NCBI GenBank assembly: GCA_007133875.1
Contig: SLLW01000232.1
Span: forward strand, 1 to 14,234
Direction of reading: 5' to 3'
DNA from: Balneolales bacterium
GTDB taxonomy: Bacteria > Bacteroidota > Rhodothermia > Balneolales > Natronogracilivirgulaceae
Length of the DNA: 14,234 nt
The notes beneath the pieces are model-generated. The model saw only the letters and a list, made by a program, of their open reading frames with translations. It was not told the DNA's origin and ran no database searches. Position numbers and translations under genes: made by a program. This document shows, piece by piece, positions 3,345 to 12,252 of this stretch (position 1 is its first letter; each line of letters opens with the position of its first letter).

Positions 3345-6013
3345 TCTAATAGCCTCCTCCTTACGTCCGCTCTCTTATTCGATAACATAATGTGGTCATG
3401 CTCCAGTCTTCCGACAAGCTCAATCTCATCATTAAACCCTTTCGATGTGGTGAAGTTACCCGACATAGCGGGCATAGCCGACCGACCGCCAACGTCTACC
3501 ATCGCGCTTGTAATAATCCTCGAAAGGTCAGAGAGTGGGGCAATGACTTCGGGGTTGCTTTTCACCCCTGCATACTCCCCAACTCTTACCAATGTATCAT
3601 CATATGCTATACCACCCGAAGCAAGCCCGGGGACATTCAGATTCAATGGCTTCATCACATCCGGATATGGCGTAAATCCTCCCCCGGACATTACAGCCCC
3701 GGCCACACCGCCAGTACCTCCCCCGAATGCCGTGCTTATCGTAGCACTGACTAACTGCATGGCAATCATTTTGGCCATCTCTTTCAGAACCTCCTGAATG
3801 CTCACCTTAGCCCCAAAAGCCATGTCCACAAAGGCAGAAGTAATTCCCTGCAAGGCCCCTTCTATAATCCGGGACATATCTACCATCGATTGTGTGAATT
3901 CCGCTTGGACTACTTCCATTTCCTCAAAACCACCACGAACCAACTGGATATTATCGCTCAAATCTCTGGTATTCTCCACGATGGCTTCTGTGCCAGTTTC
4001 AATCCGTTTCATCTTGGTGGGATCCATCCCAAACGGATTTTTGGCCTGTAGGCGGGCAAGGGTCAGGTGCTCATCCCTCTGTTCTTTCAGAGCATCCAAC
4101 ATCATCTCTGCCTCAACCAACTGCTCAGCGGTCTTGGCTTCGGCCTTGGTCTTGTTCCATTTCTCAATCTCCTCGTTGAGTTCTTGCCATGCGGTTTTAT
4201 TTTCATTGACCGCCTTTGTGTTGTCATCTATTGCACCCCCCGCACTTTCTGCGTTGTCGGCAAACTTTTCCAGCTCACCGTTAACAAGCCCTAAAGCGTC
4301 TTTGTATTTGGCTAAATCCTGCGACATGATAGCCCGCGTAACCTCGTTGGTTTCGTTTTGAAGGTCGCGCATCGCCTTTGGGATTTCGTCTTCAAGATAT
4401 AACCTTAAAGATTCCAGTTCTTCGCGCGTGAGGCTCTCTATGTTGTTAGCAAGGTTATCTATGCCTCCAACGGCCTTTAACGTGCCGTCTGCCATCCTTT
4501 CATAGCTATCGGCAAGAGTATAGTATATCTGCTCCCCAAGTGCCGCGTTGGTGTCTTTTACCGCGTCACCAAGTTTCCACTGCGCCTCTTCCGCCTCACT
4601 GGTTCTGTTTCTGAATATAAGCAGGTAAGAAGCTGCCGCAGTGAGTACGGTGACGAGCGCACCAATGGGGTTCATGGCTATTACGGTATTTAGCTTTACA
4701 AACCCCAGCTTTGTGGCGTGCAGCATCCTTACCAGGCTGGGAAGCATCCGCGCATGGAGAACAGCCCCCGCCTTAGCAAGTGTTCCCATGCTCCTTATTA
4801 ACGTACCAGAAACAAATATCAGCGGCCCCATCGCAGCAACAACGGAACCAAGAATCGTTCCCCACCTTAATAGCGACGGGTTTGTTTCAGATAGTCGGCG
4901 CGTAAATTCCGTAAGCCTACGAGTTAAGGCAGTCACCCAGTCCAAAAGGCCGCTCTGTGCGATAGCTATCTGTAATTCCTCAAAGGCCGACCTTAATTCT
5001 TTTAGTGATCCATTTAAACCCTCCATCTGCTGCTCCGCAACACGCTCTGCCGTGCCGCCCGCATTTTCAAGCTCTCCGGTATAGTCCCTTAAGGCATCCG
5101 CGCCCCTGTCCATTAAAACAGCAAAAGCAGGCCCGGCTCTTGTACCCAACGCCTCTACCATCTCGGCAGTGGTAAGGCCCTGTTTCTCGACTTCTTCAAG
5201 AATGTCTGCAAAGGGCAATAGCCTACCACTGGCATCTCTTATATTTAATCCTAACCCATCCGCCTGTTTCGCTAACTGAGCAAGTACCTGCCTAAAGCCC
5301 GTACCTGCGCGACCTCCTTTTATGCCCGCATCAGAAAGAAACCCTATCGCGGCGGTGGTTTCTTCTAATTCAATACCATAAGTTTTAGCCATCGGTGCGG
5401 CATAACTCATGGCTTCACCCAGCTCATGTAAATTGGTGTTGGCACTTGTAAATGCTTTGGCCATCGTGTCCACCGTCTGCTCTGTCTGTGAAGCATCACG
5501 GCCGAACCCCTGCATGACATTAGAAACAATGTCCGCAGCGTCAGCCATCTCCATCTGTCCGGCGGCGGCCAGGTTTAACGTCGAGGGCATAGCCTCCATG
5601 ACTTCTTTAACTTCAAACCCCGCCATCGCCAAATATGACATCGCATCAGCGGCCTCGGACGCGCTAAACTGCGTGGTGGAACCCAAATCACGGGCTTGTT
5701 TTTCCAGTGACGCTATATCAGATTCCGTGGCCTGACTGATGGCAGCAACACGGTTCATGGACTTCTCAAAATTCCCGGCGGTTCTTAGGGCCATCGCGCC
5801 AAATCCCACAATCGGAGTGGTTAAATACAGGGACATCTTCTTTCCTGCGCTCTGCATTTGCTTCCCTGTACGCTGCATCTGCTCACCGACCTGATGAAGC
5901 GATGAGGCCATTGCCCGCGAAGACTGCTCCATGCGCCTCTCGGCCTGGCGTATAGCCATCTCAAACTCCCTAGTGTCAAGTCCTAAACCCGCCGTTAACT
6001 TGCCTACGTTCAT
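3341..6013 (-). CDS. Tail tape measure protein (TP901 family)
   Basis: 890 residues. The region about 80-330 is the TP901 core: 'NFEKSMNRVAAISQATESDI' (81-100), 'LGSTTQFSASEAADAMSYLA' (110-129), 'MAGFEVKEVMEAMPSTLNLA', 'GIKGGRAGTGFRQ' (230-242) and 'MVEALGTRAGPAF'. An N-terminal coiled coil (about 15-60) precedes it. Two hydrophobic segments (about 384-406 and 445-467) are of the kind used to insert into the host membrane. A charged, helical segment follows, then a glycine-rich C-terminus ('GGGTGGVAGAVMSGGG') and 'VGEYAGVKSNPEVIAPLSDL', typical of the tape measure end that meets the tail tip. The protein sets tail length; at about 0.15 nm per residue this means about 130 nm. No peptidase or lytic transglycosylase domain is evident. 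Its start overlaps the chaperone extension, and its stop overlaps the next start, both by ATGA. Confidence 0.93.
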   Translation of the reverse strand: MNVGKLTAGLGLDTREFEMAIRQAERRMEQSSRAMASSLHQVGEQMQRTGKQMQSAGKKMSLYLTTPIVGFGAMALRTAGNFEKSMNRVAAISQATESDIASLEKQARDLGSTTQFSASEAADAMSYLAMAGFEVKEVMEAMPSTLNLAAAGQMEMADAADIVSNVMQGFGRDASQTEQTVDTMAKAFTSANTNLHELGEAMSYAAPMAKTYGIELEETTAAIGFLSDAGIKGGRAGTGFRQVLAQLAKQADGLGLNIRDASGRLLPFADILEEVEKQGLTTAEMVEALGTRAGPAFAVLMDRGADALRDYTGELENAGGTAERVAEQQMEGLNGSLKELRSAFEELQIAIAQSGLLDWVTALTRRLTEFTRRLSETNPSLLRWGTILGSVVAAMGPLIFVSGTLIRSMGTLAKAGAVLHARMLPSLVRMLHATKLGFVKLNTVIAMNPIGALVTVLTAAASYLLIFRNRTSEAEEAQWKLGDAVKDTNAALGEQIYYTLADSYERMADGTLKAVGGIDNLANNIESLTREELESLRLYLEDEIPKAMRDLQNETNEVTRAIMSQDLAKYKDALGLVNGELEKFADNAESAGGAIDDNTKAVNENKTAWQELNEEIEKWNKTKAEAKTAEQLVEAEMMLDALKEQRDEHLTLARLQAKNPFGMDPTKMKRIETGTEAIVENTRDLSDNIQLVRGGFEEMEVVQAEFTQSMVDMSRIIEGALQGITSAFVDMAFGAKVSIQEVLKEMAKMIAMQLVSATISTAFGGGTGGVAGAVMSGGGFTPYPDVMKPLNLNVPGLASGGIAYDDTLVRVGEYAGVKSNPEVIAPLSDLSRIITSAMVDVGGRSAMPAMSGNFTTSKGFNDEIELVGRLEHDHIMLSNKRADVRRRLLE
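3353..3362 (-). promoter_or_regulatory. Strong Shine-Dalgarno of the tail-tip gene
   Basis: AAGGAGGAGG on the minus strand lies eight bases before the ATG at 3344, inside the last codons of the tape measure gene. The start is therefore secured both by this site and by the ATGA overlap. Confidence 0.7.
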
Positions 6014-6381
6014 TTTTTCCTTTTTTTGTATGCATTAGCGATAGACCGCATCTGTTCTTTCATCTGATCAAGCGTCTGTGGCTTTTTCTTCTTCTCGTCC
6101 CACGGGAACTCAAACAACTCTGTTGGCTTTTTATATGCGTGCTTGACATGCCTGTTCTGCATATTCCACTGGTGCATCAACAACAGCCTTAATCGTTCAT
6201 ATTCCTGCTTTTCTTTTAGCTCAATAACATCATTGTGTGCTTCAAGCGCGTGATCCAGTTCTTTGGGTGTCATCTTTTTAAATTCCCTACCCGTAACACC
6301 CAACCGGGCGTTGGCAACCCCTGCAAGCTGAGCTATTGTTCTTTCTTCTGCCTTACCGGATCCCTGGGCAGAAGCTCCTCG
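6010..6381 (-). CDS. Tail assembly chaperone, -1 frameshift extension (lambda gpT-like)
   Basis: This frame has no plausible start of its own: it opens upstream at a GTG at 6420 without a ribosome site, and it overlaps the short chaperone gene. After -1 slippage at T TTT TTC the ribosome reads CGA GGA GCT (Arg-Gly-Ala) and continues for 123 residues to TGA at 6010. The complete product therefore spans 6010-6647 and has 89 + 123 = 212 residues. The extension has a conserved-looking 'TIAQLAGVANARLGVTGREF' part and then a long charged helix rich in Lys, Glu and Gln ('EHKEKQEY'-type composition around 'IELKEKQEYERLRLLLMHQW') and ends in a basic tail 'YKKRKK'. Its stop overlaps the tape measure start by ATGA. 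By analogy to lambda gpG-T, the extension recruits tube protein onto the chaperoned tape measure protein. Confidence 0.85.
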   Translation of the reverse strand, partial: RGASAQGSGKAEERTIAQLAGVANARLGVTGREFKKMTPKELDHALEAHNDVIELKEKQEYERLRLLLMHQWNMQNRHVKHAYKKPTELFEFPWDEKKKKPQTLDQMKEQMRSIANAYKKRKK

Positions 6382-6647
6382 AAAAAATCCGGAACCATCT
6401 GAATAAAGTCTCCATAGCACTTATTTAGTAGCTTTTTGGTCGCCGCTTTATCGGCCTTGTATTTCTCGCCTTTTTCTTCACCCCCGGCAATAAGCGACTG
6501 GTGAAAAAGCTCCAGATAATCCTTTAACTTAAAATCGGCAAAGTCCTTTAATGCCTTCCCGGTGCGCTCTTCGGTCTCCATGAGGGCCTCAAAGTTTACC
6601 ATCACCGGATATTCCTTTTCGTCAATCTTGATATATTTTACTTCCAT
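6333..6647 (-). CDS. Tail assembly chaperone, short form (lambda gpG-like)
   Basis: 104 residues, placed between tail tube and tape measure genes, where lambda has G and T. The N-terminal part 'MEVKYIKIDEKEYPVMVNFE' and 'LMETEERTGKALKDFADFKL' form the usual small domain of Gram-negative and Gram-positive tail chaperones; a charged helix follows (EKYKADKAATKKLLNKC). The short form is made by normal reading to TAG at 6333-6335. At codons 87-89 (GAT TTT TTC) a slippery heptamer allows some ribosomes to change frame and make the long form. In lambda, the two forms bind the tape measure protein and recruit tube subunits, and are absent from the virion. No good Shine-Dalgarno is seen before the ATG (AAAAAAATCTAATC), which suggests low expression. 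Confidence 0.85.
   Translation of the reverse strand: MEVKYIKIDEKEYPVMVNFEALMETEERTGKALKDFADFKLKDYLELFHQSLIAGGEEKGEKYKADKAATKKLLNKCYGDFIQMVPDFFEELLPRDPVRQKKEQ
6345..6387 (-). promoter_or_regulatory. Programmed -1 ribosomal frameshift site with stimulatory hairpin
   Basis: All parts of a canonical signal are visible. The slippery heptamer T TTT TTC (6387-6381) is in the correct register with the short chaperone frame (GAT TTT TTC). A six-base spacer GAGGAG (6380-6375) follows. Next comes a perfect inverted repeat CTTCTGCC (6374-6367) and GGCAGAAG (6352-6345), eight base pairs enclosing a 14-base loop that contains GGATCC. Slippage by one base back joins the two overlapping frames exactly. The heptamer is less slippery in E. 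coli than A AAA AAG-type sites, so the yield is probably low, as in lambda G-T. Confidence 0.85.
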
Positions 6648-6689: not shown

Positions 6690-7091
6690 TTAAGCTGTTG
6701 ATTCAACAAATATAGGCTCACCACTGATTGTAATGGTTACATCCATCGTGATCTGGTTGTCCACATCAATAGTAAGCGGCTGCTCGGCCACATAACCGTC
6801 AAATGACAGCGTTGAGCCGTCGGGCAGTGTCAGCTCGTAAGTCTGTATGACATCACTCTCAAAGTCCGTCTTCATCAACGTGTAGCTGGTCTTTGTGTAA
6901 TTCATACTGAGCGACATATCCCCTGCGTCCCTAAAACTGGGAATCTTCTCGCGGTATCCACCTGTTGATCCCAGTGATGTCACGTCGATCATTTCGCGTG
7001 TCATACCGGGGCCGCTGATGGACAGCACCTCGGCAATAGTGTCTCCATTTCTCGTAAGCGTGGAGCCAATGCCAGTTATCGCATCACTCAT
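6690..7091 (-). CDS. Major tail tube protein
   Basis: 133 residues with the pattern of small siphophage tail tube proteins: an N-terminal strand 'GSTLTRNGDTIAEVLSISGPG', cut here as GSTLTRNGDTIAEVLSISGP; the 'EMIDVTSLGSTGGYREKIPS' segment (in tube proteins the EEID-x-T-x-lGs pattern followed by a loop); 'GDMSLSMNYT'; and a terminal 'ITMDVTITISGEPIF'. These strands form the β-sandwich that polymerises into the hexameric rings of the tail tube. It has one of the four strongest ribosome sites in the window, as expected for a high-copy structural protein. A weak hairpin with U-run follows and may lower expression of the chaperone genes. The length is compact and there is no extra Ig-like domain at the C-terminus. 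Confidence 0.88.
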   Translation of the reverse strand: MSDAITGIGSTLTRNGDTIAEVLSISGPGMTREMIDVTSLGSTGGYREKIPSFRDAGDMSLSMNYTKTSYTLMKTDFESDVIQTYELTLPDGSTLSFDGYVAEQPLTIDVDNQITMDVTITISGEPIFVESTA

Positions 7092-7094
7092 AAT

Positions 7095-7484
7095 TTACCT
7101 CCTTTGTACGTTAAAATTTGTAACTAAAATTACTCTGCCGTTATCGTCATATTCCAGCATGGCAGGCCCACTGGTTAATCTGATAGCGGTATAATAAGCA
7201 CCGTTGCGCGTCTCATTTGCCCGGCCGTGCAACAGCTGTCTTATCTCATCTATTTGCGTCCATGCGCTTATGTAGTTGTTATCTCGAACCCTTACCTGTA
7301 TACTGCCCCTCTCATAACGCTCATCAGGATTAAAGTACAGGTCGTCGCCTTCTCCCGGAGTGTCGTATATCGTTACACAGCTATTCGGGCTTGTCGGCTC
7401 CCGGCTAATGAACAGATTTGTGCCGAATACCAGGTCGGTATCATCTACCAGCATGTCTTTTATGTCAACACTGATCGCGTTCAT
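7095..7484 (-). CDS. Tail terminator protein
   Basis: 129 residues, in the position between the gp10-like gene and the tail tube gene that tail terminators occupy. The sequence has the α/β style of this group (PF12691/DUF3168-like): an N-terminal helix 'ISVDIKDMLVDD', a strand 'SCVTIYDTPG', an edge strand 'GSIQVRVRDNNYISAWTQID' leading into the helix 'EIRQLLHG', then 'YYTAIRLTSGPAML' and a last strand 'ILVTNFNVQRR'. In other phages the protein caps the tail tube and binds the head connector. It overlaps the upstream gene by ATGA, and its last codons contain the Shine-Dalgarno of the tail tube gene. No clear deviation from the family is seen. Confidence 0.72.
   Translation of the reverse strand: MNAISVDIKDMLVDDTDLVFGTNLFISREPTSPNSCVTIYDTPGEGDDLYFNPDERYERGSIQVRVRDNNYISAWTQIDEIRQLLHGRANETRNGAYYTAIRLTSGPAMLEYDDNGRVILVTNFNVQRR
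7098..7105 (-). promoter_or_regulatory. Strong Shine-Dalgarno of the tail tube gene
   Basis: AAAGGAGG on the minus strand, six bases before the ATG at 7091 and overlapping the final codons of the tail terminator gene. It is identical to the site before the capsid gene, in keeping with the high copy number of both products. Confidence 0.75.
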
Positions 7485-7879
7485 AAGCTGTCTTTTATAA
7501 TCCTGACTATCTCTCTTTTGTTCCTTAACAGTGCCGCCTCAAAGAACTTTGCCCCACTGCCCGGTCTGTTAAATGTAGCTTCCATGTTTTCGTGTACATA
7601 TACCGCATAAGCAGCTGTAAACCCCATTAAAACACCCGGCCCAAACCTTCCTTTTACCGGATTAGTAAACCAGCTCCCCCTTAGGTTACCCGTGTCAACA
7701 GGTATCTTTGGCTCGGTCTTCTCCATGTCGCGGCGTATAAACATGGCGGCGTGCAACATGCCTTTTGAGCTACGTATTTTAAGGCCGTCCAGGTGGGTGT
7801 TTATGTTTTTTACCAAATCCTGGATGCCCTTTAACTCAAAGTCTTTTACATTAAACCCCTTTGCTACCTTCCCCCTCAT
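7481..7879 (-). CDS. HK97 gp10-like neck / tail-completion protein
   Basis: 132 residues. Two motifs identify the HK97 gp10 family: 'PVDTGNLRGSWF' (about 61-72), the P-x-DTG-x-L-R-S turn that is its strongest signature, and 'YAVYVHENMEATFNRPGSGAKFFEAAL' (in pieces: YAVYVHENMEATF, NRPGSGAKFFEAAL), the Y-A-x-Y-V-H/E followed by an aromatic-glycine segment before the last helix. The N-terminal 'LKGIQDLVKNINTHL' helix also fits. Family members lie at the head-tail interface and are needed for the tail to join the capsid. It overlaps both neighbours by ATGA. Start chosen because the ATG is coupled to the upstream stop. Confidence 0.85.
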   Translation of the reverse strand: MRGKVAKGFNVKDFELKGIQDLVKNINTHLDGLKIRSSKGMLHAAMFIRRDMEKTEPKIPVDTGNLRGSWFTNPVKGRFGPGVLMGFTAAYAVYVHENMEATFNRPGSGAKFFEAALLRNKREIVRIIKDSL

Positions 7880-8238
7880 AAGTAAACCATCATTACAAAT
7901 TCATCAATAGACCTAAACAGCGGCGACCTCATCTTGGTTTTAATCTCATAAGCCCCCTCAATACCCTTTGGGTCTGACTTTTGGCTTTCACTTAGCGACG
8001 TAAGCTCGCCAAGCCATAACTTCCCCTGAATATCCATGTCTTCAGGTGTCATCACCTCGGCCCGGCTGACAATCTCGCGGCCCTCGGAATCTACCACCAC
8101 CTCGGCCTTGTCTTCCCACCTAACATACCTCTGCTCTGGCGACCCATAATCAATCCCCCCAAAACCATCTATTTCAGGAGCAGGCCAATATACAGCAGGC
8201 TGCACACATACACTCTCTATGAACTTTATAATACCCAT
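7876..8238 (-). CDS. Probable head-closure / head-tail joining protein
   Basis: 120 residues without a strong family motif. The segment 'YVRWEDKAEVVVDSEGREIVSRAEVMTPED' (in pieces: YVRWEDKAEVVV, DSEGREIVSRAEV, MTPED) followed by 'GKLWLG' is the pattern of a small β-barrel stopper protein: a strand with charged residues, a reverse turn with Glu-Gly, and a strand ending in a hydrophobic Leu-Trp-Leu. This is the pattern seen in the second connector gene of many siphophages. Start and stop overlap both neighbours by TAATG and ATGA. There is no Shine-Dalgarno, so translation depends on the upstream gene. It would close the DNA exit channel after packaging. The call rests on gene order as much as on sequence. 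Confidence 0.62.
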   Translation of the reverse strand: MGIIKFIESVCVQPAVYWPAPEIDGFGGIDYGSPEQRYVRWEDKAEVVVDSEGREIVSRAEVMTPEDMDIQGKLWLGELTSLSESQKSDPKGIEGAYEIKTKMRSPLFRSIDEFVMMVYL

Positions 8239-8573
8239 TACAAGGCTATTAGTTTAACGATAGTCTTTGACTGTGATACACTCTGTAACCTCCCCGATGT
8301 ATCCATAACCATAGCTGTCTGACCGTAATGTGTGGAGGAAAGGTTTTCCCCAAACACGTCAGAATATTGTATCTCTGCTGTCCCTGCCTTTTCTCGTACC
8401 GAAATCTTGTCCCTGATAGCGATAAAGTGCGCGGCCAGCCATTTTTGTACTTCGCTCTTTACGGGGTCATCAATAGGGAGTTGATCCACCAGCACCCCGG
8501 CACTGTCAACATACGCCTGAATAATGCCGTCATCCAGTTCCGTTTCGATAATATCCTTTACTTTCTGTATCAT
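8238..8573 (-). CDS. Head-tail adaptor (HK97 gp6-like connector)
   Basis: 111 residues, a usual size for the connector ring protein that docks under the portal. The first half is helical ('MIQKVKDIIETELDDGIIQAY', cut here at 20: MIQKVKDIIETELDDGIIQA) and leads into 'VQKWLAAHFIAIRD', the W-AAH helix characteristic of gp6-like/DUF4054-type adaptors. The second half contains 'ENLSSTHYGQTAMVMDTSGRL', a glycine-tyrosine turn (T-x-YGQ-A) typical of the same group. It overlaps the sulfotransferase stop by ATGA and the next gene by TAATG. Position as the first of four connector genes before the tail tube agrees with the call. I am fairly sure of the role and less sure of the exact Pfam family. Confidence 0.75.
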   Translation of the reverse strand: MIQKVKDIIETELDDGIIQAYVDSAGVLVDQLPIDDPVKSEVQKWLAAHFIAIRDKISVREKAGTAEIQYSDVFGENLSSTHYGQTAMVMDTSGRLQSVSQSKTIVKLIAL

Positions 8574-9250
8574 TTTCTTGATTTTTCAAGTCGTTTATCA
8601 ACAAACCCCATAATATCCGGGTTCCACTTTAGGCCCGTCCATGATAACAACTGGTGTACCTGTTCGAAGTTTCCCCAAACCATGCGCTGCGGCCATATTA
8701 CTTTGCAGTCCAACCCAGCAGTTATCATCTCCACAAACCTGTCCTCGTACTGCCTCGCCATCCATAGCCACCCCTCGTCTTCTGTGTCCACCCCTAGGTC
8801 AGCCAGATTTTCAGGGTCTTTAAACGCGTCCATGTGGGCTGTTTTCTTACAGCTATGTATAATATCTCCCGTGCGCCTTCTTACGATTACCCATTTAGCA
8901 TCAGGAAAGGCAGCGTTCCAAACGGGCCACATTAAGGCTGCCTCCGGTGATTTAACAAACCATACACCGTCCCTGTAGCCGTCAGATACCATAAAATTCG
9001 TAATGTAGTCGTGCCAGTCTGCGGGAATCGTCAACCCCTTTGTTTGTTTAAGTGGGTATTGTCCAGTTATGTCAATGCCCTGTGTCGTCAAATACGGCCT
9101 TATTACCTGATCCCTTAGTGGGAGGTTTTCGTTTAGCTTTTCACTTAACGAGTCACCACCAAAGCCACCACACAGGTTTATGATGCCTGATATAATCCCC
9201 GCGCCGGAGCGTGGACATTCGGTAATTATTATAGGGGCTTTATCGTACAT
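8570..9250 (-). CDS. PAPS-dependent sulfotransferase
   Basis: 226 residues, short but near the length of compact P-loop sulfotransferases. The N-terminal strand-loop 'IIITECPRSGAGIISGIINL' (7-26) is the 5'-phosphosulfate binding loop, with Arg14-Ser15-Gly16. 'WFVKSPE' (97-103) corresponds to the usual K-x-P strand. 'WVIVRRRTGDIIHSCKKT' (120-137) is the 3'-phosphate binding region with the conserved arginine and serine (Ser133). The family moves a sulfo group from PAPS to a hydroxyl or amine of a sugar, peptide or small molecule. There is no signal peptide or membrane segment, so it acts in the cytoplasm on a nucleotide-linked, lipid-linked or protein-bound acceptor. Placed next to a glycosyltransferase, a glycan acceptor is the simplest inference. 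No ribosome site precedes the ATG; translation probably depends on the overlapping small ORF. The stop overlaps the adaptor start by ATGA. Confidence 0.85.
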   Translation of the reverse strand: MYDKAPIIITECPRSGAGIISGIINLCGGFGGDSLSEKLNENLPLRDQVIRPYLTTQGIDITGQYPLKQTKGLTIPADWHDYITNFMVSDGYRDGVWFVKSPEAALMWPVWNAAFPDAKWVIVRRRTGDIIHSCKKTAHMDAFKDPENLADLGVDTEDEGWLWMARQYEDRFVEMITAGLDCKVIWPQRMVWGNFEQVHQLLSWTGLKWNPDIMGFVDKRLEKSRK

Positions 9251-9345
9251 GGTTTTTTTCGTCGGTATAAATCACAAAAGGCACAAGTACTACAAGTAAC
9301 GATGACTTCATTTAGCTTTCCGTATAACTTCTCTGTCAGCATCAT
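9229..9345 (-). CDS. 38-residue cysteine-rich small ORF (CxxCxxC)
   Basis: It fills the apparent gap between the glycosyltransferase and the sulfotransferase. Translation starts at ATGATG overlapping the upstream stop (TTATGATG) and runs 38 codons to TAA, overlapping the sulfotransferase start by 22 bases. A good ribosome site, GGGAGAG (9358-9352 on the minus strand), lies six bases before the first ATG. The product begins MMLTEKLYGKLNEVIVT and then contains 'CSTCAFCDLYRRKKPC': four cysteines with spacing 2, 2 and 8, followed by TIKPL. This would suit a zinc or iron-sulfur site, though no family is recognised. The sulfotransferase ATG has no Shine-Dalgarno, so the ORF may also serve to bring ribosomes to it. 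Real translation is probable from the overlaps, but the protein could be only a coupling leader. Confidence 0.55.
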   Translation of the reverse strand: MMLTEKLYGKLNEVIVTCSTCAFCDLYRRKKPCTIKPL

Positions 9346-10862
9346 AACAACTCTCCCATTTTAAAGTCAAACGCAATAGGTATAAACTGCATAAAACCGG
9401 AGTGAGGAAAGAACGTGAACTCACTAAAATAGACCTCGTCGTCTTTAGTTAGCATGAAATCTATCCTTACATAATCAAAACCTTTAGATAGCCTTTCAGC
9501 CATATCGGACATATACCGAAGCGGCTTTGGCTTATCCACTTCCCCATGCACCAAATTTTTATTCCTTACATTCATGCGCTCCCATTTCGGGGTGTATAAA
9601 GATGAATAGTTTTTACCTCCAATCTTTTCAAAGGTTTGAATGTAAGCCACTTTTCCATGAATCATGTGGAGCTTATAATCAGACGGAGATGCAAGGTCAA
9701 GTAGTGGCTGCACTACAAGCTGTTTTTTTATCTTTGAATAGTGCCACTCCATCTTATCAGCCCCGTAGGATTCATTCAGCGCATGCCTGGCCTTCCTTTT
9801 GATCGCTCCTTTTGTTTCGCCAGTCCCGTAAATAAGATTCCTCCCGCTGGAATGTGCGGGCTTGATAATTACGGGTATATCCAGTAAAAGGTCTTTTTCG
9901 TCGTCAACAACCTGCAATATCGGTACACGTATCTCTTCAGGGACAAGCTCGTAGGCTTTTGCTTTATCGGCGTATTCAACAATGTCGGGGCGTGCAAATA
10001 TCTTATTGTGAAGTATCTTTTCGCTCATAGATCGTGGGTTAATTAAATCCATGTCATACCCACACAATAATCGCCCTTTTTTAAGTTGCTGGTTTAACTC
10101 TTTAATATAATCCTTTCTTTGAGGATAACTTTCCCCGCCCCAGTGTTGCTGTATCCATCGGTTGGCGTGATAACAGGTGAAAGGGTCTATTTGTCCCGCA
10201 AACAACACCATACACGCTTTATCGGGCAGTTCCTTACCTACCCCGTCGCGTGAGTTCCTTAGCTTGTAGTAGGCCATCACACCGTCCTCTTCATCGTCAA
10301 ACAATGCCTCGCCACGCCCTAAAACATGGCTTATCCATGCCTGATCTGTGCCTAAAATTTCGCGCTTTTTCTTTCTTTTGTCCATAACCTCAAGCGCTCC
10401 TTCAATGTCCTGCTCAAAGCGATCCCATACCTCGCTACGCGCCCCTGCGTCCATCATAAACAGCCCACCATTATAATACTGCTCTTTTGCCACGCCGTAG
10501 AACTTATTAATAATAAAGTCCTCGTCGCGTGAGAGTAGCTCGTCAAGTGACCCGGTAACGACACAGTCAAGGTCAATACATAAAAACCTGTCACCGATTA
10601 ACTCTTTCATATCCGATGAGAAGACATAAAGCCTGTTATAACAACCTCCAAGCTCTCTGCATTTATCCCATAAAGGAATTGTCCGGCACTCTATGCCTTC
10701 GGGGTCATCCGTAATACAGATAAACTCATGCGGTATGGTGGTATGCTTTTGAACTGATCGGTACAGGTTGTTGACATGCTGCGCCGTGTACTGGCCGATA
10801 GCATTTAAAGAGGGTAACTTATACCCTCCGGTATGGTTCCACTTAAAGCATACTATCTTCAT
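9342..10862 (-). CDS. Glycosyltransferase (GT-A, GT8-like) fused to a TupA-like ATP-grasp domain
   Basis: 506 residues, two enzymes in one chain. Residues about 1-250 resemble a GT-A glycosyltransferase: an N-terminal strand 'MKIVCFKWNH', a metal/nucleotide-sugar DxD in 'FLCIDLDCVV' (Asp97, Asp99), 'YYNGGLFMMDAG' (129-140) and 'GTDQAWISHVLG' (171-182), all in the order usual for GT8-like enzymes. Residues about 284-506 match the TupA-like ATP-grasp family, known from teichuronopeptide and capsule clusters: 'VIIKPAHSSGRNLI' (Lys334 as probable ATP-binding lysine), 'EWHYSKIKKQLVVQP', 'DYKLHMIHGKVAYIQ', 'YVRIDFM' (Asp468) and 'VYFSEFTFFPHSGF' (Glu481), ending 'KMGELL'. Such enzymes join a carboxylate to an amine with ATP. 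Catalytic motifs are intact in both halves. Neither signal peptide nor membrane segment is seen, so the protein should act in the cytoplasm. The stop overlaps the next small ORF by ATGA. Sugar and acceptor are unknown. Confidence 0.85.
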   Translation of the reverse strand: MKIVCFKWNHTGGYKLPSLNAIGQYTAQHVNNLYRSVQKHTTIPHEFICITDDPEGIECRTIPLWDKCRELGGCYNRLYVFSSDMKELIGDRFLCIDLDCVVTGSLDELLSRDEDFIINKFYGVAKEQYYNGGLFMMDAGARSEVWDRFEQDIEGALEVMDKRKKKREILGTDQAWISHVLGRGEALFDDEEDGVMAYYKLRNSRDGVGKELPDKACMVLFAGQIDPFTCYHANRWIQQHWGGESYPQRKDYIKELNQQLKKGRLLCGYDMDLINPRSMSEKILHNKIFARPDIVEYADKAKAYELVPEEIRVPILQVVDDEKDLLLDIPVIIKPAHSSGRNLIYGTGETKGAIKRKARHALNESYGADKMEWHYSKIKKQLVVQPLLDLASPSDYKLHMIHGKVAYIQTFEKIGGKNYSSLYTPKWERMNVRNKNLVHGEVDKPKPLRYMSDMAERLSKGFDYVRIDFMLTKDDEVYFSEFTFFPHSGFMQFIPIAFDFKMGELL

Positions 10863-11125
10863 AGCGTCTTTATAAAGTCCTCGATATCTGTCTTTCTCAG
10901 GGCTTTGTCGTTTAACCTTACCCCGTCCTTTTCTACGTCAAACCATCCCTTTTTGCGTTGGACAATATCGTAATCGTGGCCGATCTCTTCACCCTCTATT
11001 AACTCAAGGGTGGGCCTAAAAGCCCTGGATATATCCTTTTCGTCACACTCAAATTCGTCACCCTGATAGAACGTCCTACCGTCCTTTAGGGTTAAGCTAC
11101 CTCTGGTTAGTTTTTTCCATTTCAT
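10859..11125 (-). CDS. Small phage protein of unknown function between capsid and glycan genes
   Basis: 88 residues if the ATG at 11125 is used; a GTG at 11146 would add seven residues (MVLIFIA), but it lies within a small hairpin and has no ribosome site, so I prefer the ATG. That start also lacks a clear Shine-Dalgarno. The N-terminal half 'GSLTLKDGRTFYQGDEFEC' looks like the short β-rich opening of many small phage proteins encoded after the capsid gene. The C-terminal half 'GWFDVEKDGVRLNDKALRKTDIEDFIKTL' (split here: GWFDVEKDGV, RLNDKALRKT, DIEDFIKTL) reads as a β-hairpin followed by a helix. I do not assign a function. Its stop overlaps the glycosyltransferase start by ATGA, so the two are probably translated together. 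Confidence 0.75.
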   Translation of the reverse strand: MKWKKLTRGSLTLKDGRTFYQGDEFECDEKDISRAFRPTLELIEGEEIGHDYDIVQRKKGWFDVEKDGVRLNDKALRKTDIEDFIKTL

Positions 11126-11169: not shown

Positions 11170-12252
11170 CTATGCCAGCAAAGTAATACCGCTCTTGCCG
11201 TTATAGTCTGAGCGAATTTGTGGCACTTGAATAGTCATAACCTTGTATTTGGTAATCATGTTACCTTCCTGCTGCCATTCAACGTTCTGAATGCCCATGC
11301 CGCGCACAAGCCTTACAACGTCGGGGGTCATCTGCACAAACACAACATGATCGTCTGGCAACGTATCAACAACTTTGATACCCTGAATGCCGCCAATCTT
11401 AAGGATGCGCTCACGGATGGTCTGTGTAGATTCACCGGAAACGTCATAATCCTCATCGAGCTTGGTTTCATAAGCAGTAGGTACATAGATCATCCACGGG
11501 CCATAATGAAGCTCGTCGATAGACTTTTGCTTAAGCGCGATAACGTCAGCCAAAACCTCTGCTGCGGTAGTCCCACTATCAGACCATGACTTATCCAATG
11601 AAACATCATTTTTATCAGGGAAGTTCACGTAGCTGTAAATGCTACCCCCGCCAAAAGTGTATGTTTCATTAGTAAACAGCATCTTCTCAAGCCTTTCAGC
11701 AACCTTCCTGGAAGCGCGCTCGGCCTGTGTGGTGTCAAGTGCATTGCCCATGTTACGGCTCGCGGCAAGTACCCTTGCGTTGATCTCATAGTCCACATGG
11801 ATAATCGGCACAGGCAGATAGTTGGTAGAGTAGTTAACCCTGTCGTTACGCGCCCTCGTGATACCGTCCATTGTCAGGTCGGCCTCCAGGCTGTCGCTGA
11901 TGTCATGGGATTCCAGTACAGTCGTCCCCATAGCATTACCCAGGTTGTAAACCAATCCCTTTTCTACCAGGTCGTTAATACCGTTAAGGCGCGTTTCGGC
12001 AACACCCACAACAGCATCGTCAAGCTGCTTCCACTCGTCCCGGCGCAGCGTCCCACTGTTAACCTGTACCGTCTGGTAACTTTCTGCTTTCTTAGGGTCG
12101 CCACCTTTGTAAGTGGTCATGTAAGCCCTTCCATCTTCACCGATATATGGCCTCATCGAGCCGGGGTCAATCTTGCCGCTGTTAGCCAGCATGTTTGCCA
12201 CAGGCCCCTGTGAGCTTTGTCCATTGGTGAAATCCATATTTGCATCACTCAT
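11170..12252 (-). CDS. Major capsid protein (HK97 fold)
   Basis: 360 residues, a usual length for a HK97-fold capsid protein without a long delta domain. Supporting features: position directly after protease and decoration genes and before the connector genes; a strong Shine-Dalgarno; and a sequence with the features of capsid proteins. These are an extended N-terminal arm (about 1-75), a long helix-rich segment with 'DSLEADLTMDGITRARNDRV' (about 121-140) followed by 'LPVPIIHVDYEIN', a spine-like region 'ASRKVAERLEKMLF', and a terminal β-rich P/A-domain segment 'IKVVDTLPDDHVVFVQMTPDVVR'. It forms the icosahedral shell. No obvious cleavage site for the protease could be fixed by eye. A comparison with phage capsids of the encapsulin-like branch seems likely to hit, but I could not test this. 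Confidence 0.87.
   Translation of the reverse strand: MSDANMDFTNGQSSQGPVANMLANSGKIDPGSMRPYIGEDGRAYMTTYKGGDPKKAESYQTVQVNSGTLRRDEWKQLDDAVVGVAETRLNGINDLVEKGLVYNLGNAMGTTVLESHDISDSLEADLTMDGITRARNDRVNYSTNYLPVPIIHVDYEINARVLAASRNMGNALDTTQAERASRKVAERLEKMLFTNETYTFGGGSIYSYVNFPDKNDVSLDKSWSDSGTTAAEVLADVIALKQKSIDELHYGPWMIYVPTAYETKLDEDYDVSGESTQTIRERILKIGGIQGIKVVDTLPDDHVVFVQMTPDVVRLVRGMGIQNVEWQQEGNMITKYKVMTIQVPQIRSDYNGKSGITLLA

Follow-up and report, generated by a model that had tools for sequence, protein, structure and literature searches.

A recurrent, variable glycan-gene cassette at the capsid-adaptor junction of uncultured tailed phages, with a probable role in virion glycosylation

Introduction

Why would a tailed phage carry sugar-modifying and sulfating enzymes in the middle of its head genes? 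The question is raised by a complete contig of 14,234 bases (SLLW01000232.1, C78; hereafter, the window) from a 2.4-Mb, 76% complete bin assigned to Balneolales (GCA_007133875.1, G000). Its structural genes all lie on the minus strand and encode MuF, a DUF2213-type protease, a cement/decoration protein, the capsid protein, a block of additional proteins, a DUF4054-like head-tail adaptor, a connector, a Neck1-type protein, tail proteins and the tape measure. From capsid to adaptor, the block consists of a small protein, a glycosyltransferase (GT) fused to a TupA-like ATP-grasp domain, a 38-amino acid (aa) open reading frame (ORF) and a sulfotransferase.

Glycosylation of virions by phage enzymes is known from mycobacteriophages (Freeman et al. 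2023, via PMC12619734 and PMC11256854). The biological role of sulfotransferases encoded in phage genomes was called unclear in a 2023 paper (PMC10580990), and the cassette described below supplies a context for them. Here, we report that the window block belongs, as one of the less common forms, to a widespread variable locus. This locus probably serves virion glycosylation at a fixed capsid-adaptor site of uncultured tailed phages, with soluble enzymes that would assemble a glycan on a virion protein, and sulfate it, in the cytosol.

Results

The cassette recurs at one site

Viral contigs were scanned for the fusion and the sulfotransferase, and two further scans used the capsid alone and the adaptor alone so that empty sites could appear; the output comprised the best 80 of 278, 371, 319 and 266 confirmed loci, respectively. 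Among the resulting 316 records, 115 contained both capsid and adaptor, and these formed 69 groups at 95% capsid identity. A cassette lies between capsid and adaptor, in a gap of 1.0-9.8 kb, in 66 of the 69 non-redundant loci, a proportion that is not a population frequency and is skewed to cassette carriers because the capsid profile derives from cassette loci and each scan contributed its best 80 matches. All 41 groups with a member from the capsid scan and 27 of the 30 with a member from the adaptor scan have the cassette. The three groups without it are L272 and L314, where capsid and adaptor are separated by 15 and 67 bases, and L305, which has the small gene only. The search for the same block in other phages that the original prediction had called for thus found a cassette at the same site, and this recurrence excludes recent cargo of a single genome.

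The ends of the cassette are fixed and its middle is not. An enzyme of the Maf/sialyltransferase fold, present in 63 of the 66 cassettes, is first in 62 of these (shuffle mean 14), and the sulfotransferase is last before the adaptor in 47 of the 57 cassettes that have it (shuffle mean 13); genes for small proteins were removed before counting. Between them, GT, methyltransferase, epimerase and ATP-grasp genes vary even among loci with capsids at least 80% identical: 11 of 22 such pairs have no variable family in common, in a single-linkage clustering at 60% coverage under which a fused protein forms a family of its own. Overall, the cassette proteins fall into 121 families, of which 83 have a single member. 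Twenty of the 121 families were scanned against Pfam, and 15 of the 16 matching representatives are of glycan-related kinds. In two loci (L016 and L008), enzymes are fused to one another.

Cassette genes are tightly packed, with overlaps at 341 of 525 junctions (319 of 521 with ATG starts). They lie on the strand of the head genes in 66 of 66 loci under an ORF picker that favours that strand (longest-ORF rule with profile and strand priority); without the strand rule, a single opposite ORF of 54 aa appeared in one of 67 loci. Genes were labelled by profiles that had been iterated on the loci themselves, and some cross-match, such as a 343-aa 'MTP' in L237.

The encoded enzymes appear to be soluble. 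Among 456 cassette ORFs, a simple hydropathy count found none with three or more transmembrane (TM)-like segments, two with two and 37 with one; among tape-measure ORFs, 61 of 138 had three or more. The first and last enzymes also follow the identity of the capsid gene as other head genes do: the observed tracking was reached by 0 of 200 permutations for adaptor, decoration protein, Neck1 and the Maf-like enzyme and by 1 of 200 for the sulfotransferase, compared with 63 of 200 for the last GT. Tracking between adaptor and Maf-like enzyme was reached by 4 of 200 permutations.

The window carries a minority form

The block and its borders comprise the following features.

11170..12252, minus strand: major capsid protein, which borders the cassette on the left and was the query of the capsid scan (PF19774, E 3.5e-21; phrog_771, E 5.4e-23)
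10859..11125, minus strand: small 88-aa protein (Sm89), with ATG at 11125 (phrog_26087, unknown function, E 2.4e-5)
9342..10862, minus strand: fusion of GT and TupA-like ATP-grasp, 506 aa
10140..10862, minus strand: GT domain, GT-A type by its DxD motif, fusion residues 1-241 (phrog_1962, E 2.9e-16)
10566..10574, minus strand: DxD motif, D97-L-D99, invariant in 18 of 18 aligned fusions
9348..9995, minus strand: TupA-like ATP-grasp domain, fusion residues 290-505 (PF14305, E 8.9e-27)
9229..9345, minus strand: Cys-rich 38-aa ORF, a doubtful gene (ORF reading only)
8570..9250, minus strand: sulfotransferase, 226 aa (PF13469, E 6e-4, below cut-off; fold from a model)
9203..9214, minus strand: PRSG loop, sulfotransferase residues 13-16, presumably of the 5'-phosphosulfate-binding type
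8852..8881, minus strand: RRRTGDIIHS, sulfotransferase residues 124-133, presumably of the 3'-phosphate-binding type
8238..8573, minus strand: DUF4054-like head-tail adaptor, which borders the cassette on the right (phrog_302, E 4e-4; PF13262 below cut-off at E 9e-4)

Adjacent genes overlap by 4 bases (ATGA) between small protein and GT, between GT and 38-aa ORF, and between sulfotransferase and adaptor; the overlap of 38-aa ORF and sulfotransferase is 22 bases. The coordinates and overlaps bear out the original prediction of a block that separates capsid from adaptor, has overlapping genes and shares one operon with the head genes. Within the block, promoter and terminator sites were not above their count in shuffled sequence, and Rfam gave no match to an RNA element. 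The G+C content is 0.39-0.41 in 500-base windows spanning 9001-9750, where the sulfotransferase gene starts and the ATP-grasp half ends, compared with 0.48-0.52 inside the capsid gene.

The same form, with small protein, GT-ATP-grasp fusion and sulfotransferase and no Maf-like gene, is found in L004 and L005, the latter contig stopping before the sulfotransferase. Shorter cassettes consist of the small protein and sulfotransferase only (L263) or of the small protein, Maf-like enzyme and sulfotransferase (L273).

The GT-ATP-grasp fusion

Both halves of the fusion were recognised as the original prediction had read them. The GT half matches a glycosyltransferase family, and all 18 aligned full-length fusions share the two aspartates of the DxD motif (D97 and D99) as well as N131, D173 and Q174. 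The ATP-grasp half scores 94.6 bits against PF14305 (cut-off 25), and of its C-terminal acidic residues D468 is invariant and E481 nearly so. A PDB sequence search with the profile of the fusion gave no match. An amide-linked group on the sugar would follow from membership of the TupA family.

Beyond the window's own protein, a database search found 34 relatives of the fusion, of which 17 are full fusions. Among the others, P0022 combines this GT with a protein named methyltransferase, and P0030 has methyltransferase and MptE/Maf-type domains. In P0004 and P0006, identity to the window protein is 98-100% in the first 150 residues but drops to 16-38% in residues 251-450, a pattern that points to exchange of the ATP-grasp half by recombination. 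In the sibling locus L002, capsid and sulfotransferase are 100% identical to those of the window and the fusion is 97% identical in its best segment. There, at 6977-8496, GT and ATP-grasp stand in different frames, through either a split fusion or an assembly indel.

The sulfotransferase

The identification of the last enzyme as a P-loop sulfotransferase held up on fold and motifs. Against Sulfotransfer_3 (PF13469, cut-off 27 bits) the window protein scores 20.5 bits and the relative in L299 29.1. An AlphaFold2 model, with a predicted local distance difference test score of 95.7, has the fold of sulfotransferases that use 3'-phosphoadenosine 5'-phosphosulfate (PAPS), and its best PDB matches are sulfotransferases. 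In the PRSG loop, R14, S15 and G16 are present in 26 of 27 aligned homologues (with one gap) and P13 in only 15. At the presumed 3'-phosphate site R124, R125, T127, D129 and S133 are invariant in all 27, and K100 is present in 25. The catalytic glutamate of tyrosylprotein sulfotransferase (TPST) follows the PRSG loop; its candidate counterpart, E41, occurs in 20 of the 27 homologues, the window protein included, and is lacking in seven.

Fold, RSG loop, K100, R124/R125 and S133 are thus shared with tyrosylprotein and bacterial PAPS sulfotransferases. The window protein differs from them in its length of 226 aa, in an identity of 14-15% in the structure alignments with TPST and in being encoded in a phage operon. 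Two sulfotransferase queries (E 0.01) matched none of 50,697 deposited phage records, so that no cultured phage is at hand.

The Maf-like enzyme

The commonest first enzyme is short (median 233 aa in 55 proteins) and has a Maf/GT42-like catalytic fold: the model aligns with residues 261-510 of the 632-residue structure 5mu5, and the extra flagellin-binding (tetratricopeptide repeat) part of Maf-1 is missing. A PDB sequence search with the Maf-like profile gave chance-level matches only, including an MptE-type HPPK at E 0.15. Flagellar Maf glycosylation islands resemble the phage locus in placing hypervariable glycan genes beside genes for a self-assembling surface protein and in using a Maf-fold transferase, and in these islands Maf-2 requires a co-encoded partner, GlfM, to bind flagellin (PMC13317340). 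The phage enzyme, in contrast, consists of about 233 aa of catalytic fold only, and the phage cassette ends in a sulfotransferase.

The small protein and the Cys-rich ORF

In 64 of the 66 cassette loci, the gene next to the capsid gene belongs to the Sm89 family, which is absent from both groups in which capsid and adaptor are directly joined (L272 and L314). The window protein matches no Pfam family, and Pfam and PHROG scans of 31 members found no common family. In six loci, the N-terminal domain of Sm89 is fused into larger cassette proteins, ahead of the Maf-like domain in L217 and L301 and at the N-terminus of other proteins in L187, L201, L207 and L215; the L215 protein has a Capsule_synth match and its L207 counterpart no Pfam or PHROG family.

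By analogy with GlfM, a constant small protein of this kind might be a docking partner, which we offer as a guess. Against such a role, the window has Sm89 without a Maf-like gene, and cultured relatives have a small gene without glycan genes. In three of five cultured relatives, the small gene after the capsid gene resembles Sm89 weakly (E 0.0007-0.03 in an eight-protein search). Because of this likeness Sm89 may have an ordinary head-gene origin, and the idea that it belongs exclusively to a glycan system was set aside.

The 38-aa ORF, included in the original prediction as a member of the block, was dropped as a conserved component. Cys-rich ORFs of this kind occur in nine of the 115 records: the window and its duplicate L001, the sibling (L002/L084), and L100, L170, L191, L192 and L220, whose ORFs are unlike that of the window, so that only the sibling shares it.

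Other sites and side observations

In a contractile-tailed type (L006, L007 and L163), the same ATP-grasp and GT, adjacent or fused, are encoded between the neck and tail sheath genes (sheath phrog_23 in L007), preceded by a small protein that resembles the C-terminal half of Sm89; L163 comes from a record titled as a Cloacimonadota metagenome-assembled genome. GT clusters also lie between a presumed capsid gene and Hc1 in L083 ('Tetraselmis viridis virus' S20, NC_020840), L040, L057, L068 and L075, and the window's capsid profile finds the capsid of none of these five. The capsid-adjacent site is thus used repeatedly for GT clusters.

Both directly joined empty-site groups have doubled decoration-profile matches in one ORF, and doubled tail-tube-profile matches in one ORF occur in L272, L314 and L258, the last likewise with the empty site, and also in L311, whose contig begins at the adaptor. 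Such doubling is perhaps an alternative construction of the virion surface.

In the window, two minus-strand ORFs before the tape measure (6333-6647 and 6010-6420) overlap by 88 bases and contain GGATTTTTTCGA. They are likely a tail-chaperone pair made by -1 frameshifting, as GGATTTTTTCGA, within the overlap, reads Phe-Phe in both frames.

Host and sulfate supply

Attempts to assign a host through prophages failed: among 20 family genomes the capsid, and among 395 phylum genomes the sulfotransferase (E 1e-20), were each found only in the bin itself, and the host is therefore unproven. APS kinase is the usual source of PAPS. It is encoded by a congener (G001, 98% complete) and by 24 of 40 genomes searched, three of them by short matches only.

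Discussion

A probable route to a modified virion

Gene content and order, recurrence, soluble enzymes, folds and conserved motifs are seen in the sequences and models; the scheme we infer from them extends to the acceptor, the identity of the sugars, the order of action and the benefit. Soluble enzymes translated alongside the head proteins would build a short glycan in the cytosol during head assembly, on the capsid protein, the decoration protein or the small protein adjoining the capsid gene. In most relatives, the Maf-like enzyme would probably attach the first sugar and the variable GTs extend it; methyltransferases and, in few phages, ATP-grasp ligases would decorate the glycan, and the sulfotransferase, probably acting last, would transfer sulfate from PAPS supplied by the host. 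The window's fusion of GT and ATP-grasp would account for both the sugar and the amide step, with its sulfotransferase completing the product. Fast turnover of the middle genes would give related phages differing, serotype-like coats, which may mask them from adsorption traps, predators or inhibitors or alter adsorption.

It is possible, and we propose it only tentatively, that the cassette is a coat serotype locus in which a long-kept Maf-like initiator and a terminal sulfotransferase flank freely exchanged glycan genes, the small protein (its N-terminal domain being fused to some cassette proteins) being acceptor or a docking partner that recruits the enzymes to the head, and the product a sulfated, strain-specific virion glycan.

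Several observations weigh against virion glycosylation, beginning with the sampling described above. The sulfotransferase is lacking in 9 of the 66 cassettes, and its tracking with the adaptor is weak (rho 0.16, a level that 11 of 200 permutations attained). The Maf-like gene found in 63 of 66 cassettes is missing from the window, whose contig is partial, and a search of the rest of the bin (76% complete; no positive control) did not find one either. An ATP-grasp of the window's type occurs in only 4 of 66 cassettes. The nearest solved relatives of the sulfotransferase act on protein tyrosine, not sugar. Cultured phages with related capsids have no annotated glycan genes at the site in the five records examined of 14, and the bin, at its 76% completeness, gave no APS kinase match.

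Alternative explanations

The relatives of the sulfotransferase suggest direct protein modification, with sulfate placed on tyrosine and an amino acid ligated to protein by the ATP-grasp enzyme, beside a separate glycosylation. We regard this as unlikely: the E-value is marginal, seven of 27 homologues are without E41, a candidate equivalent of the TPST residue, structural rank does not fix the substrate, and the accompanying GTs and nucleoside diphosphate-sugar enzymes favour a sugar. Modification of host surface glycans (O-antigen or capsule), blocking superinfection or changing the infected cell, has precedent, as cyanophage GT clusters were interpreted as acting on host-surface polysaccharide (PMC7824862), a further point against a virion target. 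The Capsule_synth match in L215 fits this explanation, and GT, epimerase, methyltransferase, ATP-grasp and sulfotransferase genes are also known from bacterial polysaccharide loci. Export of host polysaccharides, however, needs membrane steps, as in O-antigen and Gtr systems, and Gtr-type serotype conversion employs a polytopic flippase and a membrane-anchored GT. The cassettes do not conform to this type, with no ORF of three or more TM-like segments and no flippase-, polymerase- or anchor-like polytopic protein, a gap that counts strongly but is not decisive, since the host could supply these. Their place in the head operon, with its overlapping genes, also argues against a host-surface role, which we judge rather improbable. 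The original prediction had favoured virion decoration as a first guess. Its preference for the virion over the host surface stands, because polytopic proteins are lacking, the end enzymes track the capsid gene and the Maf fold is that of a protein O-glycosyltransferase; the coating itself is predicted from the genes.

The turnover of the middle genes, with half of the closely related pairs sharing no variable family and most families single proteins, would also be expected if the site were a tolerant hotspot gathering unrelated cargo whose enzymes have no common product. The preponderance of glycan-related representatives, the fixed ends and the enzyme fusions make this very unlikely. Addition of sugars to the bases of phage DNA, a hypermodification found in T4-like phages and others, is scarcely credible here. 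Phage GTs frequently act on DNA, and one methyltransferase representative matched a phrog named DNA methyltransferase, yet the 20 representatives scanned include no base-hydroxymethylation or nucleotide-synthesis match, the late head-operon position does not suit it, and Maf-like and sulfotransferase ends suit protein or glycan acceptors. A defence function was discarded as PADLOC matched neither the three main window proteins nor one Maf-like relative; NCBIfam returned nothing for five proteins.

Relation to known systems

Glycosylation of a virion protein by the cassette, the function we favour, has several partial counterparts. Mycobacteriophages likewise encode their GTs, and their glycans sit on capsid and tail-tube subunits, where a shielding role was proposed; in Maravista, related to the mycobacteriophages studied, the GT genes are located close to the 3' genome end. 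The cassette phages differ in the capsid-adaptor junction, the fixed ends, the Maf-like enzyme, the sulfotransferase and, sometimes, an ATP-grasp enzyme, and a glycan on their virion protein is predicted from genes. The chlorovirus PBCV-1 glycosylates its capsid protein without host organelles through virus-encoded multidomain (fused) GTs such as A111/114R; it differs in being a virus of a eukaryotic alga, with an N-glycan and no capsid-adaptor cassette (PMC7826918). Phage S20 has GTs, two genes annotated as sialyltransferases and a methyltransferase between presumed capsid gene and Hc1; its capsid gene, annotated as hypothetical, is assigned by position, and it has no sulfotransferase match.

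Among the literature matches listed (titles and abstract openings, with most subscription papers outside), no capsid-adaptor glycan cassette ending in a sulfotransferase appeared. A sulfated phage particle of such a kind is not known to us from any report. The cassette is also a compact set of soluble enzymes that can be tested in E. coli. If virion glycosylation is indeed its function, a group of uncultured phages would diversify its chemical coat as bacteria diversify their O-antigens, with consequences for phage adsorption, neutralisation, predation and immune recognition.

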